Below are positions 45,112-60,329 of a DNA stretch of 64,000 nucleotides, in pieces. The notes below the pieces were generated by a model. That model was not told the origin of the DNA and did not search any database. It saw only the letters and a program-made list of their open reading frames with translations. Source of the stretch: Pseudomonadota bacterium (GTDB lineage: Bacteria > Pseudomonadota > Gammaproteobacteria > Xanthomonadales > Ahniellaceae); NCBI GenBank assembly GCA_022843465.1, contig JALHNO010000004.1, forward strand, positions 186,001 through 250,000, read 5' to 3'. Within the stretch, counting starts at the first letter, position 1, and every line of letters begins with the position of its first letter. A program made the position numbers and the translations under genes.

Positions 45112-45252
45112 GCCACCAGACCGAAGGTCTCGTGCAACGTAACAATGTTTTCCTCACAAGGCGCTCGATTTGATCTCGCCCGGGGGTTTTTCCCGACAGT
45201 TGTGGCCCCATCTGAATGCTACGGTGGGCTTACACACTGCGGGATATGGACC

Positions 45253-46713
45253 ATGAAGACAAGCTGGATAGGTGGGCTGCTGCTGGCGGCCGCCACGACC
45301 GGGTCAGCACAGTCACTGACTTTCTCGATCAGTGGCGAGCCGGTGACGATGGCACTGGATACGCCGGTGGTGATCGATGGCGCACCAGCGACGCTCTCCG
45401 ACCTGCGCTACCGCCCCAATGGCATGCAGGCGCGCTGGAGCGCAGCGGGAACCGTACTGCGCGGGGTCACGCCGACTCCAGTGTTCAGTTACACCCTGAT
45501 CGGTCCAGTGACCCAGGTGTCTCCGCTCGCGGTTCTCGGGCAACCGATCACGATCACCTCCGATACCACCCTGCTCGGTGTCGGCGCCTCGCACACCCTG
45601 CCACTCGGTACTCCGGCGGTAGTCGCTGGTCTGATTGACGCCAATGGCAGCGTGCTGGCCAGCATGGTGGAGCGCCGTGGTGCAGCCGGGCCACGCTTAC
45701 TGTTGACCGGTCCGGTTCATGCCGTGAACGCAGGCAACCAGACGATCGACGTTGGCGATCAGCCGGTTTCCGTTGCCGGCGCAGGTTTCGATGACTGTGC
45801 AGGGGCAACTCCGGTGGTGGGCGAGTATGTCGAACTGCGTGCGAACGCGATCGATCCGTTTCCGCCGGGCACCCTGATCACTACCGTGACCGATGCGCGC
45901 TGCATTGCCCTGGTGCCGGCAGGGACGCCGGCAGCGATCGGCTTTCTGGAAGGGCTGGTCACCGCGGTGCCGAGTGCCACCCAGTTCTTGATCGGCGCGC
46001 TCGCGATCAATTTCGATAACAGTACGCTGTTCGAATTTGGCGATGCCGATGATCTTGAGCCGGGCGTCGGGGTGATCGTGCATGGCAGCTATGTGGATGC
46101 GCAGACGCTGGCCGCGACCGAAATCGCCTTTGTGCGCCCGGTGGTGCGCTTCCAGGCGCCGATCGAACCGGCCGCGGTGGTGCCGGGCACTTCGATCAGC
46201 GTATTCGGGATACCGGTACTGTGGTCGGCACAGGTGCGCGACGAGGACGGCTATCTCGCCAATGGCCTGAACCAGGCCCTGCAGGTCGAGGTGCGTGGCT
46301 ATCTCGACAGCAGTGGCCAGGCCTATGCCACGCGTGTGCGTGATCGAGGCGATCCCGATATCAATGACGTGGTGCTGCGCGGACCGGTGCAGGCAATCGC
46401 CGAGCCGACAGTCACCATCCAGGGGCTCGCGGTTGATACGACCGGGGCCATCTTTACCGATGAATACGGCGCGCCGCTGACATCAACGCAGTTCTTCGCC
46501 GGCGTACAGATCAACCACATGGTCGATGCCAGCGCAGCCAGCTACAACGCCGCCGGTCAGTCGCTCGCTGCCGGCGCGATCATCTGGATTGATGCGCCGG
46601 TGCTGCGTGCACCGGCGGTCCGGCCAGCCGGCAACCCCAACGATACGATCACGGCGGGCACGGCGCGCGACTACGCGTTTGTCGAACCGATGTTTGCCAG
46701 CAGCTTCGAATAG
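45253..46713 (+). CDS. Secreted DUF5666-like repeat protein with FxSSFE tail
   Basis: 486 residues from ATG 45253, with signal peptide MKTSWIGGLLLAAATTGSAQ. The body is a series of beta units of about 70 residues, each with phrases such as GPVTQVSPLAVLGQPITIT, TGPVHAVNAGNQTIDVGDQP and LVTAVPSATQFLIGALAINF; this is the OB-like DUF5666 pattern (G-x-V ... f.v.g..V). The C-terminal residues are FVEPMFASSFE, related to the FFSDFE tail of 41780. Function of DUF5666 is unknown to me; secretion to the cell surface is likely. Confidence 0.7.
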   Translation: MKTSWIGGLLLAAATTGSAQSLTFSISGEPVTMALDTPVVIDGAPATLSDLRYRPNGMQARWSAAGTVLRGVTPTPVFSYTLIGPVTQVSPLAVLGQPITITSDTTLLGVGASHTLPLGTPAVVAGLIDANGSVLASMVERRGAAGPRLLLTGPVHAVNAGNQTIDVGDQPVSVAGAGFDDCAGATPVVGEYVELRANAIDPFPPGTLITTVTDARCIALVPAGTPAAIGFLEGLVTAVPSATQFLIGALAINFDNSTLFEFGDADDLEPGVGVIVHGSYVDAQTLAATEIAFVRPVVRFQAPIEPAAVVPGTSISVFGIPVLWSAQVRDEDGYLANGLNQALQVEVRGYLDSSGQAYATRVRDRGDPDINDVVLRGPVQAIAEPTVTIQGLAVDTTGAIFTDEYGAPLTSTQFFAGVQINHMVDASAASYNAAGQSLAAGAIIWIDAPVLRAPAVRPAGNPNDTITAGTARDYAFVEPMFASSFE

Positions 46714-52399: not shown

Positions 52400-52431
52400 C
52401 AGGTGATCGCGCCCGCAGGGGCGATCACCTG
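52400..52431. terminator. Bidirectional hairpin between htpX and allA
   Basis: CAGGTGATCGC (52400-52410) / GCGATCACCTG (52421-52431), perfect 11-base stem with further G-C pairs in the loop. It lies 11 bases after htpX and overlaps the allA stop at 52425, so it can end both convergent transcripts. Confidence 0.75.
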
Positions 52432-52943
52432 GGTTGGACGTCGAGGGGTTCGATCCAGCCGGGCGCGCTGAGGCTGACTTCGTCGCAGTTGTGACCTGGG
52501 CCGCCGCGATCGATCACCAGAAAATCTCCGGCGCTATCGAGCGCGATCAGCGGATGGTGCCAGCTGCCGCGGTGGTAATTGATGCCTTGTCCGGCATCGG
52601 CGAGAAAGACCCGTGGCAAGGCCTCAGGCGTTTGCGCCACCACGACCAGATAACGCTGACCCTGCAGCGGAATGAACGCCTGACTGCCCAAGGGGTGACG
52701 CTCCAGCATGCGGATGGCGAACGGCAGGCTGCGCGCCTGGGCACGGAAGATGCTGATCAGGGTGCGGCCACCCTCGGCATCGGTATCGACGCGGGCGAGG
52801 TCGTGGAAGCGCTGCGCCGTACCCTCATTGACGGCATAGGTCGCGCGCGCGGCGGCCGCCTCGATCACATCACCAAATGCGGCGAAGGCCTCAGCAGTCA
52901 GCGCCTCGACGCTCAGTACACAGCGCTCGCCCGCCACGCTCAA
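52425..52943 (-). CDS. allA: Ureidoglycolate lyase
   Basis: 172 residues, ATG 52943. Splits ureidoglycolate into glyoxylate and urea. Family features: [37 protein letters not shown] and [15 protein letters not shown] (cupin-like barrel, with metal-free active site around the His/Trp segment). Start overlaps the alc stop by four bases. Last gene of the purine operon. Confidence 0.93.
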
Positions 52944-53950
52944 ACCGGCCGCCCATGCAGACGCAGCCGGGAGACACCACCGTCCGGAATGATATTGAAG
53001 CGGATGTGACTGATCGCCGCGTGCGCATCGATTTCGCTGCGGTAGTGGTGCTGATGATCCATCTGCAGTTTCTGCTCCGGCAGCAGCGTCGGCCAGAACA
53101 TCGACTGGGTGATCAGCGACTCACGCGTTCCACCGACCGCAGCGCTGGCCTGGATAGAACAACGGTCCGGAAAGTTGCCCTTGAAATGGCAGGTATCGAC
53201 TTCGATCGCTTCAATCTGACCCGGTCTTGCCAAGGCGATGATGCACCAGTCGTTACCGGGTTCGCGGCGTCGGCGGGTTTCCCAGCCGTCGCCCATATTG
53301 ACGCCGCGACCAGGGAGCAGCAGATTGGAAGCAAACCCGAAATGCTGGTTGTTGGCCGCCACCACGGTGCCGCCGTTCAGGGCCGCGATCAGATCGATCA
53401 GGCCATGGGCATCGGCGACTGCGGCGCCGAATTCGGGTGTGCCGTAGACGCGCAGGCGGGCCAGGCCGCCATCGGGAAACAGATTGACGCGCAGATGCGT
53501 ACACACCGCCGCGGACTCGATCGCGAAATAGTGATGGCGATTGCCGGCAAGATTGACCGCAGGCAGCAGCGGCAGCCAGTTTGAACGTTCATCGGCGTCG
53601 CCGTCGGCGATATGGCAGGCCTCGATCGAAGCGGCCGGCGGAAAGTTGCCGGTGAAATGGCTGGTATCGAGATCCACGCCATGGATCACACCGGGACGCG
53701 CCAGCCGCACGATGCACCAGTCGTGTCCGGCAGTGCGCTTGCGCCGGCTCTCCCAGCCGTCCATCCACTTGCCGTTCTGGTCGTACTTGCCGGGAATGAA
53801 GACCGCCGGATCCGGATTGAGCATGCGCTCGCGCGCCGCGAAGAAATCATCGCTCGCTGTCAGCGCCACGGCGCCCAGTCGGGCATCGGCAAGGTTGACA
53901 TGGCGCTGGACGAAGTCGGGCGCGTCTGCATCGATCTGGGGCAAGGCCAT
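52940..53950 (-). CDS. alc: Allantoicase
   Basis: 336 residues, ATG 53950. Hydrolyses allantoate to ureidoglycolate and urea. Two repeats of a jelly-roll domain: [20 protein letters not shown] and [18 protein letters not shown], each followed by GxIxxxxxDTxHFxGNFP ([13 protein letters not shown] and [11 protein letters not shown]). This internal duplication is diagnostic of allantoicase. Length is normal. Confidence 0.95.
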
Positions 53951-53977
53951 GCTGCGGTTCCTGGTAGGTCGGCGCGC

Positions 53978-54496
53978 TCAACGGCGCGCGGTAGTGTCGA
54001 TTGTATCGGCGAGACGGAACGCTGCGATCCTTTCGATCTGACGCAGCGCCTCGGCGAATTCCTGCTCAGGGTTGCGGTCAATCCGAACCTGCATATTGGC
54101 GATGATGCTGTGGCGATCATGTCCGCGCACCGCCAGGATGAAGGGAAAGCCGAAGCGCTCATCGTAGGCCGTGTTCAGCGCATTGAGGCGGGCGAATTCC
54201 TCCGAGGTGCACTCGCCAAGTCCGGCACCGCGTTGCTCCTGGCGCGAGGCGGCTGTCAGCTCATCGGCGATCGCCGCCTTTCCTGCCAACCTCGGATGGG
54301 CGCGGATCAGGGCCAGCTTGGCATCGTTATCGGCAGCGGCCAGGCTGGCGCAGAGCGCCGCATGCAGTTCACTGACACCGGCAAACGGGCGCGCTGACCA
54401 GGTGCGTTCGGCGACCCAGGGCGAGTGTTCGAAGATGCCAGCCAGCAGTTCGGTGAACGCGGCCTGGTCGAGTTGATTGATCTGATCCAGTGTCAT
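53978..54496 (-). CDS. uraD: OHCU decarboxylase
   Basis: 172 residues, ATG 54496. Decarboxylates 2-oxo-4-hydroxy-4-carboxy-5-ureidoimidazoline to S-allantoin after uricase and HIU hydrolase. All-helical fold: AFTELLAGIFEHSPWVAE (with the catalytic region), IRAHPRLAGKA (His-Pro), TSEEFARLNALNTAYDERFG and PFILAVRGHDRHSI. uricase and pucM are not in this window. It lies between puuE and alc on the same strand. Confidence 0.95.
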   Translation of the reverse strand: MTLDQINQLDQAAFTELLAGIFEHSPWVAERTWSARPFAGVSELHAALCASLAAADNDAKLALIRAHPRLAGKAAIADELTAASRQEQRGAGLGECTSEEFARLNALNTAYDERFGFPFILAVRGHDRHSIIANMQVRIDRNPEQEFAEALRQIERIAAFRLADTIDTTARR

Positions 54497-54556
54497 TCGC
54501 TTGCTCTTCGCCTGCGCATGTCATGCAGGCGGTGTACGTGGTGGATAGCGTTGAAA

Positions 54557-55519
54557 TCAGCGGGGCAGATCGGCATCAGCAGCACCCGACCAGGCCGCAC
54601 GATACGGATGCGACTGCTTCCAGTGTCGCGCGATGTCGATGCGCCGGCAGACCCAGACCTGGTCATGGCGGGCGACATGATCGAGAAAGCGCTGCAGGGC
54701 GATGAAGCGGCCCGGCCGTCCCAGTATCCGGCAATGCATGCCGATCGACATCATCCGCGGCAGGTCAGCGCCTTCGGCATACAGCACATCGAAACTGTCG
54801 CGCAGATACTCGAAGAAATGTGTGGCGGTGTTGAAGCCCTGGGCGGTGGCGAAACGCATATCGTTGCTGTCGAGCGTGTAGGGCACGATCAGATGCGGCC
54901 GCTTGCTGCCGTCGCCGAGTGTGACCCTGGACCAGAACGGCAACTCGTCCCCGTAGCAGTCCGAGTCATACTCGAAGCCGCCGTGCTCGACCACCAGTTG
55001 CCGGGTATTGGGGCTGTCGCGCCCGGTGTACCAGCCGAGCGGCGCGCTTCCGGTCAGCGCACGATGGATCTCGACCGCCTTGTGCAGATGCGCGCGCTCC
55101 TCATCGATCGACATCTGCTGATAGTGGATCCAGCGCCAGCCATGCGAGGCGATCTCATGACCTGCGTCGATACAGGCACGAACGAACTCCGGATTGCGCT
55201 GCATCGCCATCGCCACGCCAAACACGGTGAGCGGCAGGCCACGACGGGCAAACTCGTCGAGAATGCGCCAGCCACCCACCCGGCTGCCGTACTCGTAGAT
55301 CGACTCCATGCTCAGGTGACGCGCGGGATAACTCGCCGCGCCGATGATCTCGGACAGGAACTGCTCGCTGCCGGCATCGCCGTGCAGCACCGAGTTCTCG
55401 CCACCTTCCTCGTAGTTCAGCACGAACTGCAGCGCCACGCGCGCGCCGCCGGGCCAGTCGGCGTGGGGAGGCCTGCGGCCATAGCCGATCAGGTCGCGGG
55501 GGTAGGGGCTATCGTGCAT
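54557..55519 (-). CDS. puuE: Allantoinase PuuE (polysaccharide-deacetylase fold)
   Basis: 320 residues, ATG 55519. Hydrolyses allantoin to allantoate without the metal centre of the amidohydrolase-type enzyme. Family signature: RDLIGYGRRPPHADWPGGAR, NYEEGGENSVLHGD, HEIASHGWRWIHYQ and GRDSPNTRQLV. First gene of the operon puuE-uraD-alc-allA, which takes allantoin-level purine waste to glyoxylate and urea. Confidence 0.95.
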   Translation of the reverse strand: MHDSPYPRDLIGYGRRPPHADWPGGARVALQFVLNYEEGGENSVLHGDAGSEQFLSEIIGAASYPARHLSMESIYEYGSRVGGWRILDEFARRGLPLTVFGVAMAMQRNPEFVRACIDAGHEIASHGWRWIHYQQMSIDEERAHLHKAVEIHRALTGSAPLGWYTGRDSPNTRQLVVEHGGFEYDSDCYGDELPFWSRVTLGDGSKRPHLIVPYTLDSNDMRFATAQGFNTATHFFEYLRDSFDVLYAEGADLPRMMSIGMHCRILGRPGRFIALQRFLDHVARHDQVWVCRRIDIARHWKQSHPYRAAWSGAADADLPR

Positions 55520-56304: not shown

Positions 56305-56704
56305 CTGGTCGCATCCAACGCTGCAAACAGAACACCGTTGCGGCGGTGACCAGCATCACCGCGGCTGTGCCGGCGATCACCACCAGCAGCAATTTGAATC
56401 CCAGCGGACCCAGCAGTTCCGGCATATCGATCACCACCACGAGCGCCGGAACAAAAAACAGCAGCATCGATGACAGCAGCCAGTCGGCACCGCGGGCCAG
56501 GCTGATCGTCCGGATCAGACCAGTGCCCAGTGCCGCGAGCAGCACCAGCATGGCGAGCACACCGCCGGGAATGGCAAGTCCGATGCGTGCGACCAGTCCA
56601 TCGCAGAGCCACCACAGCAGGATGATCACGGCGACCTGCAAGGGCAGGCTGCGTCGCAGTGTACGTCGTGCCGAAATCGAGAGACGACGCAAGCTGCGTG
56701 TCAT
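56294..56704 (-). CDS. lrgA: LrgA/CidA-family holin-like membrane protein
   Basis: 136 residues, ATG 56704. Four membrane helices; family motif LAIPGGVLAMLVLLAAL (usually IPGxxxGxxLL) and SMLLFFVPALVVVI. The N-terminal 20 residues are highly basic. It pairs with LrgB directly downstream. A glycolate or pyruvate export role would suit the nearby glyoxylate-producing purine operon, but this is inference. Confidence 0.88.
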   Translation of the reverse strand: MTRSLRRLSISARRTLRRSLPLQVAVIILLWWLCDGLVARIGLAIPGGVLAMLVLLAALGTGLIRTISLARGADWLLSSMLLFFVPALVVVIDMPELLGPLGFKLLLVVIAGTAAVMLVTAATVFCLQRWMRPDER

Positions 56705-57026: not shown

Positions 57027-60000
57027 ATGTCTGGTCGTCGACTGTACATCCGCTTCGGCATCTTTGCCGTGCTTGGACTCGGAATCTGGGTGCTTGGCAT
57101 CAGCCAGGCGCAACCGGCCCCGACCGGCACGCGTCATGTCACCGGATACCTCGTACTCAGCCCACCGCGCATCGAAAATGCACCCGTCATTGCCGTTCCC
57201 GGCGTCAAGGTTCGCCTGGTTTCCCTGCTCGACAACGCCGACGTCGGCACCGTCAGGACCGATCTCAGCGGCCGCTTCAATTTCGGTGTAGTCAAGCCCG
57301 GGCGCTATCAGGTCTGCTGGTCGAAGGCTGGCATCGTGTCGCAGTGTGGCAAGACCTTTTCCGTGCAGGCACGTCATGTCTATCTGCAACGACTCGCGAT
57401 CAGCCCGAAGATCAGCGGCAAGGCACGCACGATCTACGGCAAGGTTCGTCTGGCCGATGGCAGCGTTCCGCGCACGCTCGAGCCGATGTTCGGCATCAAT
57501 GCCTTTGCCACCGTTGCCGCACGCGATGCCAGGGGCAAGCTGATTCGCAGCGGCTACGTCAACAACTACGGTGAATACGTGCTACCGGGTGTAACGCCGT
57601 CACGCGGGATGAAGATCTCGGCCAGCATCGAGGCGGCGAAGATCGAACAGCCGCTGGTCCCCGTCAGTGCCCTGTCGCAACGGATCAATCTGACCTTCAA
57701 GCAGCACGCACCCAAGATCAAGGGATTGCTTGGCAAGGCGCCCTTGAATCGGCATTGGTCGGCAAAGGCCGGTGATGCCATCGACGTCACCATCAAGGCC
57801 ACCGACGCCGATGGCCACAGCTTGACCTACTGGTGGCTGCTGCCCGATGGCAGCACCAAGTTGCAGACCGCGGATGCTTCCCTGGTCGGCCTGAATCTGG
57901 GCAGCTCCGGCGGTCTACACGAATACACCGTGGTGACGGGTGATGGATTCGGCGGCTATGCACGTGAAACCTTGAAGGTCTCGACGCAGGGAATCCGTTT
58001 CGCCGGCGTTGTCAGCGGCACGAATGCACCCGTGCTCGCCGGTGTCCAGGTCGAGGTCAATGGCAAGACCACGACAACCACTGCCGATGGCCGCTTCTCG
58101 ATGTTCGTTGATGAGCAGCCGCGTTATGTGCTGAATCTGCGCAAGTCCGGCTATGGCCTGGTCTCCAAGGTCCTCGACAACGGCAACAGCAACGGCCGCT
58201 ATGTGATGACGCGCGCAACGGTGAAAAAGGTCGATCCCTCGGTCGACTTCGAAGTCGTCAATGAGCGCCGGCCTGACGATTGCCCCGGCGCGGTCGGCGA
58301 CCGCTATCGCAAGCGCGAGTCGGTGACCCATGGACAGGCGACGGGCAAGCGCGACTGCGGCCCCGGCATCAAGGTGCGCTTCCCGGCCAATGCGCTGGAA
58401 ACGCCGAACGGTGCCGCGCCAGTGGGTGATGTCCATATCGAGTTGACCACGGTCGATCTGCGCTCGGCCGATGGCATGCCGGGCAATGGCAGCGCACGCA
58501 ATACCGGCGGTGACATCCGCACCATGGAAAGCTATGGCGCCGGCACCGTCGAAATGCGCGACCAGAATGGTCCGCTGCGCATCAAGGCCGGCATGCAGGC
58601 CGAGATCACCATTCCGATCCCCGCCGAGCAACTGGCGTTCCCGGCCGCCATCCCGGCCAGCATTCCGCTGTTGTCCTACGACGAGAAGGACGGTCGCTGG
58701 AACGAGGAAGGCAGTCTGCAGCGTGATGGCAACACCTATGTCGGCAAGGTTCGTCACTTCTCTGCCATCAACGCCGATACGCTGAAGAACAATCAGGCCT
58801 GTATCCGGCTTGAGGCCACCCTGATGCCGCCGAATTTCCGCTTCGAGGCCGAGGTACCGCAGAGCGGTGCGCCGCGCATCGTCGGTGAGGTGATCGCCAA
58901 CGAGGTGCAGCGCTTCCATGTGCTGATCAACCTGCCGACCAATGCCATCATCAAGATGCGCACCTTCGACAGCAACAATCAGCCGATCGCCCTGCTCGAC
59001 GTGAACAACCCGGGTGCGGCCAACGGCCTGACCGAGTTGCAGGTCAATTCAGGCGGTCCGCAGAATCCGCTGACACCGAATGAACCGGCGTTCCCGTACG
59101 ATGCCTGCCAGGTGTCGGTTGAACTCACGCCCAAGCGTCCGGTCGGGCAGGGAGTCGACCAGTTCCTCAGTGGCTTCAACATCTTCACCGATGGCCAGAC
59201 TTCGGGCGGGGTCAATTCGCTGAACCTCACCGAGCTGGATCAGGGCAATATCAATCTCGCCAACCAGATCCGCGCCGCTGGCGAGGCGTACTACGCCCGC
59301 ATCGATCAGCCCAACCTGCGCGAGACCTTGGCCGAGTTCAAGACCAAGAATGGCTTCCCGAACGCCGATGAGATCAAGCTCGCCTATGCCAACAGCGGCG
59401 ATCTCGGCTTCGGTCGCGACATGCACTGTCGCAAGCTCACCGGCACCGGCAACAACAACGAGTACGCCTGCTATGTCACCAACTATGGCAGCCGCTTCAC
59501 CGACGACGGCCAGGACTATCTGGATGCACTGACCAATACCGTTCCGATCGCCACCGTCGGCATGGAGTACTCGCGACTGGAGGATGCCGCGGGTGTTCCG
59601 TTCGGCAATCCCATCGTCAAGTTCTACGTGTTCAAGGAAGCGCTCGGCAATGCCCGTGCCACCAGCGCCGATCTCGATGGTGCCGGCGAGCGTCCGGTCC
59701 CGCAGCTGTGCACCGTGTGCCATGGTGGCCGTCCGCCGAATGCTCCCAACAATGACGGTCTGATTCCCTGGGTCGACAATGCCTCGGTCGACATGGGCTC
59801 GCGCTTCATTCCGTTCGATCTGACCAGTCTGTTCCTGCTCAATCCGAACGGCGCCGTCAACCAGACGGCATTGCGCAAGCTCAACTGCGACATCGTCAAG
59901 AACGCGGCCCCCAGCCCCGAACTCGATGCGGTGATCGCCTCGATGTATGGGCCCGGCTGCAGCGGCAATCAGATCATCGGCAATGCGGTTCCGGGCTGGC

Positions 60001-60329
60001 AGGATGCCGCAGCCAGCACGCCGAATCTTCCCAACAAGCAGGAGGTCTACGCCAAGCTGGTAACGCCGTCGTGCCGAGCCTGCCATCTGTCGCAGACCCC
60101 GAGCAGCATCACCTGGGCAGAGGCGCAGGACTTCAGCAACTTCGGACCCACGATTGCCGATCTTGTATGCAACCGCCACGTGATGCCGCATGCCCTGGTC
60201 ACCCACAACCGTTTCTGGCTCAGCACCGGGCCGCATCAGCCGCTGTTGCTGCACAATTTTCTCAATGGCAATAGTGCGCCGGGAACGGGAACCGGACTCG
60301 AGTGCATCCAGCAGCAGGGTGATCCTTGA
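57027..60329 (+). CDS. Secreted protein: carboxypeptidase-regulatory-like domains plus two c-type haem motifs
   Basis: 1,100 residues from ATG 57027, with GGAGGAG upstream. One N-terminal helix (IRFGIFAVLGLGIWVLGI). Residues about 35-135: regulatory-like beta sandwich (TDLSGRFNFGVVKPGRYQVCW). About 315-400: a second one (VLAGVQVEVNGKT ... TTADGRFSMFV). About 440-580: a CILP/FAM171-like segment (RFPANALETPNGAAPVGDV, PLLSYDEKDGRWNEEG). C-terminal half carries CTVCH at 895-899 and CRACH at 1016-1020, i.e. two CxxCH haem sites. It may be an extracellular or outer-surface cytochrome or redox enzyme. I do not know a named family with this combination. Confidence 0.75.
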   Translation: MSGRRLYIRFGIFAVLGLGIWVLGISQAQPAPTGTRHVTGYLVLSPPRIENAPVIAVPGVKVRLVSLLDNADVGTVRTDLSGRFNFGVVKPGRYQVCWSKAGIVSQCGKTFSVQARHVYLQRLAISPKISGKARTIYGKVRLADGSVPRTLEPMFGINAFATVAARDARGKLIRSGYVNNYGEYVLPGVTPSRGMKISASIEAAKIEQPLVPVSALSQRINLTFKQHAPKIKGLLGKAPLNRHWSAKAGDAIDVTIKATDADGHSLTYWWLLPDGSTKLQTADASLVGLNLGSSGGLHEYTVVTGDGFGGYARETLKVSTQGIRFAGVVSGTNAPVLAGVQVEVNGKTTTTTADGRFSMFVDEQPRYVLNLRKSGYGLVSKVLDNGNSNGRYVMTRATVKKVDPSVDFEVVNERRPDDCPGAVGDRYRKRESVTHGQATGKRDCGPGIKVRFPANALETPNGAAPVGDVHIELTTVDLRSADGMPGNGSARNTGGDIRTMESYGAGTVEMRDQNGPLRIKAGMQAEITIPIPAEQLAFPAAIPASIPLLSYDEKDGRWNEEGSLQRDGNTYVGKVRHFSAINADTLKNNQACIRLEATLMPPNFRFEAEVPQSGAPRIVGEVIANEVQRFHVLINLPTNAIIKMRTFDSNNQPIALLDVNNPGAANGLTELQVNSGGPQNPLTPNEPAFPYDACQVSVELTPKRPVGQGVDQFLSGFNIFTDGQTSGGVNSLNLTELDQGNINLANQIRAAGEAYYARIDQPNLRETLAEFKTKNGFPNADEIKLAYANSGDLGFGRDMHCRKLTGTGNNNEYACYVTNYGSRFTDDGQDYLDALTNTVPIATVGMEYSRLEDAAGVPFGNPIVKFYVFKEALGNARATSADLDGAGERPVPQLCTVCHGGRPPNAPNNDGLIPWVDNASVDMGSRFIPFDLTSLFLLNPNGAVNQTALRKLNCDIVKNAAPSPELDAVIASMYGPGCSGNQIIGNAVPGWQDAAASTPNLPNKQEVYAKLVTPSCRACHLSQTPSSITWAEAQDFSNFGPTIADLVCNRHVMPHALVTHNRFWLSTGPHQPLLLHNFLNGNSAPGTGTGLECIQQQGDP

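Follow-up and report, generated by a model that had tools for sequence, protein, structure and literature searches.

Cytochromes P460 and c′-β are built on a five-stranded antiparallel β fold that holds a haem, and both occur as one-haem subunits that mostly assemble into homodimers (PMC11928373). The same review, published in 2025, calls this fold unique to the two families, and the words ‘fusion’, ‘di-heme’ and ‘two-domain’ do not occur in its text. Here we describe a protein that differs from those families in joining a domain weakly resembling cytochrome c′-β to a further haem domain and a chain of β domains in one polypeptide. It is encoded within a 64,000-nt stretch of contig JALHNO010000004.1 from a gammaproteobacterium of the family Ahniellaceae (hereafter, the window), by a gene at positions 57027-60329 of the forward strand. 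The initial annotation had read there a frame of 1100 residues with the haem-attachment motifs CTVCH at residues 895-899 (59709-59723) and CRACH at residues 1016-1020 (60072-60086). Translation, which gave 1100 residues with no internal stop, and a motif scan confirmed this reading and found exactly these two CxxCH motifs. When the residues of the protein were shuffled 100,000 times, at least one CxxCH appeared in 354 shuffles and two appeared in none. The β domains occupy about 700 residues and are followed by the conserved two-haem module. On the basis of the conservation of the module, a signal-like N-terminus and the presence of PF01578 homologues in the same genome, the sequence gives good support to a two-haem c-type cytochrome that would be carried on a β-domain chain outside the cytoplasm, possibly at the cell surface.

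The gene resembles its surroundings in composition: its G+C content is 0.619 (window, 0.625) and its third-position G+C is 0.779 (next gene, 0.777). The sequence GGAGGAGAT lies immediately 5′ of the ATG. No sigma-70-like promoter was found between positions 56700 and 60640, and the single terminator-like site in this interval is on the other strand and falls below the shuffle mean of 2.7. Downstream of the gene lies an M1 aminopeptidase and upstream, on the other strand, LrgA/LrgB and ureide-degradation genes; this neighbourhood provides no functional clue and no evident redox partner adjoins the gene. The ureide-degradation cluster (52428-55519, reverse strand) comprises ureidoglycolate lyase, allantoicase, OHCU decarboxylase and a polysaccharide-deacetylase-family protein, which by its position may be allantoinase/PuuE-like. 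Elsewhere in the window, a gene at 45145-46710 (forward strand) encodes a 522-residue protein with three DUF5666 stretches. The cytochrome-c assembly family PF01578 scores over its cut-off at three places in the host genome.

The first 30 residues (57027-57116), read by eye, look like a signal peptide with an RR pair, a hydrophobic run and SQA-QPA, and suggest export from the cytoplasm. The domains that follow would serve the cell envelope as a scaffold or stalk. In the whole protein, Pfam recognised β domains only, one family above its cut-off and four others below it, and NCBIfam gave nothing at E ≤ 1. The family above cut-off is the carboxypeptidase-regulatory-like PF13620 (E 2e-13; score 51 bits, cut-off 32.3), whose best stretch, residues 56-116, lies within a first transthyretin/CnaB-like domain (residues 34-129, 57126-57413; Z 10.3 to the CnaB2 domain 8bdw). 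This bore out the carboxypeptidase-regulatory-like segment of the initial annotation, and the predicted fold revealed a second one at residues 322-401 (57990-58229), where the sequence match to PF13715 (329-390) is below cut-off and the transthyretin-like fold is clear (323-397, Z 11.5 to 5aq0). Two cysteines of the first domain, C97 and C107, are invariant in the 16 relatives, the window protein among them, that share the whole architecture. Between these two domains the predicted fold places another β domain (residues 130-227, 57414-57707) and an Ig/PKD-like domain (residues 228-321, 57708-57989; Z 10.7 to SORCS2 and 9.5 to NEGR1). A further segment had been described as CILP/FAM171-like. 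No CILP match is listed for the protein and the FAM171A1-2-B_N match is below cut-off (E 0.094); what the segment does contain, at residues 440-589 (58344-58793), is a ZU5-like domain, since the predicted fold of residues 378-589 resembles ankyrin ZU5 domains (3ud2, Z 8.9 over 131 residues, 3.8 Å). The full-length model thus consists of CnaB/transthyretin-like, Ig/PKD-like, carboxypeptidase-regulatory-like and ZU5-like domains (pLDDT 72), in an arrangement that is unreliable given a pTM of 0.53. Residues 34-589 share the folds of carboxypeptidase-regulatory-like, CnaB, Ig/PKD and ZU5 domains, none of which, to our knowledge and in the papers listed by our searches, is described as a carrier of a di-haem module.

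Conservation was evaluated in 51 non-redundant proteins, the window protein included, a set that leaves aside L083 (its contig ends before haem 1), L021 (a contig-edge fragment) and four second gene copies. Both CxxCH motifs are kept in 51 of 51, so that their conservation in homologues, the test on which the initial annotation had proposed to stand or fall, was complete. M1053, F866, D884, P892, N953 and W991 are also invariant, N819 is present in 50 rows and R797 in 49. M799 is found in 45 of the 51 rows and M846 in 43, and neither varies among the 16 full-length proteins; the two counts over all rows, initially 43 and 40, were corrected by motif since the alignment had misplaced L045, L084 and L082. 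The six exceptions at M799 have V, H, Q, I, L or no motif, and M846 is replaced by I in eight rows. Invariance of Met and His was read from the 51 rows and from two further alignments, A1 (excluding L048, L045 and L021) and the modelled alignment A3 (excluding L083 and, for their long inserts, L081 and L084), and no Met or His at haem 1, other than that of its own motif, proved invariant. The spacing between the two motifs is 85-159 residues, except in two rows with inserts. These are L081 and L084, where insertions hundreds of residues long within the haem module bring the spacing to 304 and 293, respectively; in L045 about 500 residues are inserted after the ATVAME strand and ahead of haem 1. 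At least three CxxCH motifs are present in 29 of the 51 rows, and among the 16 full-length proteins a third one is present in 10, the exceptions being the window protein, the four Myxococcus proteins and L054.

The second haem appears to sit in a helical domain (residues 1004-1083, 60036-60275) that is like class I c-type cytochromes in having its CxxCH in a helix, a Met-Pro pair 33 residues past the motif His and helices thereafter. The Met of this pair (M1053-P1054, 60183-60188; M in 51 and P in 50 of 51 rows) is the only Met invariant in all 51 and the obvious candidate for the second ligand of haem 2. Among 19 members scanned with Pfam at E ≤ 0.1, weak matches to Cytochrome_CBB3 were obtained in 9 and to Cytochrom_C in 5, the matched haem being unspecified; the window protein itself matches neither Cytochrome_CBB3 nor Cytochrom_C and differs from class I cytochromes in having no PF00034/PF13442 match. 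Haem 2 thus looks like a small class-I-type electron-transfer domain with His/Met ligation.

The first haem belongs to a mostly β domain (residues 753-954, 59283-59888). A model of residues 701-1100, which carries no haem, was obtained with a pLDDT of 84 and a pTM of 0.87 and shows three helices followed by five strands, the third and fourth of which are separated by a helix, then the CTVCH motif and a helical part with CRACH. A mostly β domain with its CxxCH after the last long strands is also what cytochromes c′-β and P460 (PF16694) have. Foldseek gave no significant match for the haem module (best E 0.21). When 998 chains were realigned structurally, cytochrome c′-β of Nitrosomonas europaea (7s5o) came first, with 123 of 156 residues aligned at 4.3 Å and a Z of 5.0, a value below the level that the alignment tool calls trustworthy; the chain ranked second had a Z of 2.9. 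The absence of a family from the structural-alignment lists does not exclude that family.

Profile comparison pointed in the same direction, for one part of the P460 family. Against PF16694 proteins of a divergent kind (all 16, or 13 in the set p460c, which leaves out three), haem-1 profiles reached 73-92% with scores of 39-50 in six tests, which are not independent as the three query profiles overlap. Of 40 column shuffles per test, none reached the score in five query/template pairs and one did in the sixth; shuffles with a score of at least 80 were to be discarded, and no such shuffle arose. Control profiles of the haem-2 region (h2.aln) and of haem-3 regions, whose stretches may include haem 2, gave 21-39% against the same two sets. 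Another control stretch, h2q, also held haem 1, and its 52-67% (14% against classical P460) was disregarded in favour of h2.aln. The divergent sets were tried after a negative first test, and their result is to be weighed as that of a second attempt. In that first comparison, with 21 classical P460 proteins (21 of 30 loci, those caught by a motif pattern), the haem-1 profile gave 9-13%, no better than shuffles, and the haem-2 control gave 24%. The signal was also lost with the pooled P460 set of 37 proteins (22-43%; 5, 10 and 13 of 40 shuffles reached the score), and an HMM gave haem-1 domains lower scores than haem-2 domains and shuffled controls alike. PF16694 itself had no match in the genome of the window even at E 10 and none in the 19 members at E 0.1. 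Homology to classical P460 is consequently not supported by sequence, as judged from the 9-13% and from the HMM scores below controls, and the profiles give moderate support to a kinship of the haem-1 domain with divergent proteins of the P460 family.

The residues around haem 1 can be compared with those of the two families. In a low-confidence alignment, the column of the P460 cross-link lysine falls on V817 (V in 47, I in 2, A in 1 and T in 1 of the 51 rows), and a P460-type cross-link therefore seems unlikely; the window protein would in this respect resemble c′-β, which has no lysine at the aligned position. Three pocket positions of 7s5o are described as holding Met79, Ala109 and Arg46 (PMC11928373), and R797 and M799 of the R797-x-M799 stretch (59415-59423), candidate distal-side residues of haem 1, could fill pocket-position roles as in 7s5o. 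An enzymatic or gas-binding haem 1 of the P460/c′-β kind is possible. We would extend this only tentatively to a larger proposal, namely that the haem-1 domain forms a new and deeply divergent branch within the c′-β/P460 superfamily, hard-wired to its own class-I haem (often with a third haem) and mounted on a β stalk as a self-contained extracytoplasmic redox device for a small molecule (NO, hydroxylamine, peroxide or similar) in several phyla. If haem 1 is P460/c′-β-like, the fold reaches proteins with several domains and several haems, and one chain would allow both the binding of a ligand and the delivery of electrons to be tested, directly so through the invariant residues named here.

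In 101 genomes of the nearest kin, three matched, that of the window included, and none of the nine other genomes of its family did; in a class-level search of 369 genomes, 17, again counting its own, matched the C-terminal 400 residues. Motif patterns that leave out the haem site picked up 52 stretches in named genomes, 35 of them relatives, from six phyla (Myxococcota, Acidobacteriota, Planctomycetota, Verrucomicrobiota, Nitrospirota and Pseudomonadota). All 34 of the loci from these haem-free patterns that were examined, L083 being outside the 34, keep both CxxCH motifs and the MP after haem 2. The whole architecture, by end-to-end alignment, is common to 16 proteins from five phyla, with 31-38% identity to the window protein, invariant positions also in the β domains and lengths of 1014-1409 residues, except for L064 (950 residues), which its contig truncates. 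The combination of domains, which had been put forward as an unfamiliar one, is accordingly not unique, being present in at least 16 proteins. In the literature searched, which held few subscription papers, none of the papers listed describes such a protein as judged by title and opening of the abstract, none was returned that links cytochromes or electron transfer to the carboxypeptidase regulatory domain, and we found no name for the family. In a tree of the haem region, one change separates the 16 full-length proteins from eight rows whose genes follow a barrel-like gene, the other 27 rows belonging to neither group and in part falling among them. The tree does not establish the 16 as one clade, since the four Myxococcus proteins stand apart from the other twelve and rows that are not full-length lie between them.

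No family of Pfam or NCBIfam matches residues 744-1090 at E ≤ 0.1, and the profile search of the C-terminal region that the initial annotation had suggested returned for residues 601-1100 a sole match, DUF240, at E 0.18 and below cut-off. A single-sequence search of the PDB found nothing at E ≤ 1, the plasmid collection contained no match to the window protein, and a whole-protein single-sequence search of genome contigs gave 9 stretches, of which none was confirmed. The protein is a member of a conserved and widespread family of multidomain c-type cytochromes, undescribed and unnamed as far as we found. Its two-haem module is conserved, exceeds 300 residues and occurs in six phyla, and no family in Pfam or NCBIfam reaches its cut-off there; this represents a gap among catalogued extracytoplasmic redox proteins.

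How the module might work can be read from the asymmetry between its haems. In the reading that we favour, with a probability of about one half, the protein belongs to an undescribed, widespread family and is a c-type cytochrome with two haems outside the cytoplasm, in which haem 1 is accessible to a ligand or substrate, haem 2 is a relay and the β domains are a stalk. Haem 2, class-I-like and with His1020 and Met1053 as putative axial ligands, would serve as the electron port. Haem 1, in a β-sheet domain that may be distantly related to c′-β/P460 and that seemingly has neither the cross-linked lysine nor the distal carboxylate found in hydroxylamine-oxidising P460, would probably bind a small ligand or substrate at its distal face near R797 and M799 and exchange electrons with haem 2. 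A universal Met at haem 2 and none at haem 1 across the family is what makes us prefer this reading to one of two plain relays. The latter, a serious although less probable alternative, holds that both haems are His/Met-ligated, haem 1 through M799 or M846, and that the protein wires an envelope protein or passes electrons outward with no catalysis. M799, present in 45 rows and invariant with M846 in the 16 full-length proteins, may indeed be an ordinary distal ligand, and the barrel-like and Big/cadherin-cluster genes that precede the cytochrome gene in gammaproteobacterial relatives look like an envelope electron conduit; however, neither Met is universal, whereas M1053 of haem 2 is, and no barrel homologue lies beside the window gene or was found in its genome (one query, no positive control).

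An oxidase or surface electron-transfer protein had been suggested at the outset. The c-type cytochrome outside the cytoplasm was upheld, and an oxidase in the sense of CcP, MauG or RoxA was not: although two CxxCH motifs in one probably secreted polypeptide would suit a di-haem peroxidase or oxygenase of that kind, Pfam returned no such family for the 19 members at E ≤ 0.1 and the MauG-type signature, in a pattern modelled on the one quoted in PMC4496055, occurs in none of the 51 proteins, and we rejected this candidate at the sequence level as very improbable. The iron oxidase FoxE (5mab) is a weak lead, as a profile search aligned both its haem segments with those of the window protein in the same order at a non-significant E of 0.98. 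The haem might alternatively stabilise or regulate an adhesin-like β chain in a structural or accessory protein with no redox work. Most of the protein is β chain, and TfcP of Myxococcus xanthus, a cytochrome c reported as probably taking no part in electron transport, provides a precedent (PMC8833165); TfcP as described there carries one CxxCH and is ligated by a Cys, however, and a set of two to three haem motifs, with a distal Met that is universal following haem 2, would exceed the needs of such a role, which we regard as improbable.

The genes next to the cytochrome were also compared among relatives. In eight gammaproteobacteria (L035, L038, L041, L042, L043, L044, L046 and L049) a barrel-like protein of ∼290 residues (476 in L044) is encoded directly before the cytochrome gene. 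Four of these proteins were scanned; three had no Pfam match and the fourth matched the TonB-receptor barrel weakly, below cut-off. The barrel-like gene is itself preceded, in six of the eight, by a gene for a protein of 1200-2200 residues belonging to one BLAST cluster, with one CxxCH near the N-terminus in four of the six and the other two running to the edge of the fetched stretch. Two proteins of this cluster, one from the group (L043) and one from outside it (L060), were scanned and both have Big/cadherin repeats. These findings suggest an envelope system in the barrel-bearing gammaproteobacterial branch, which could be an undescribed envelope electron-transfer operon, and offer no evidence for a partner of the window protein itself. 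Ten neighbours of eight full-length loci showed no evident common theme. In three other relatives, homologues of one cluster, c8, are encoded directly before the cytochrome gene (L071, 6368-8053; L056, 4899-6413; L083, 5379-7097), and the one copy scanned, that of L071, has an autotransporter β-domain. L056 and L083 also share the gene that precedes it, of cluster c13, and the L056 copy of this gene encodes caspase and Sel1 domains.
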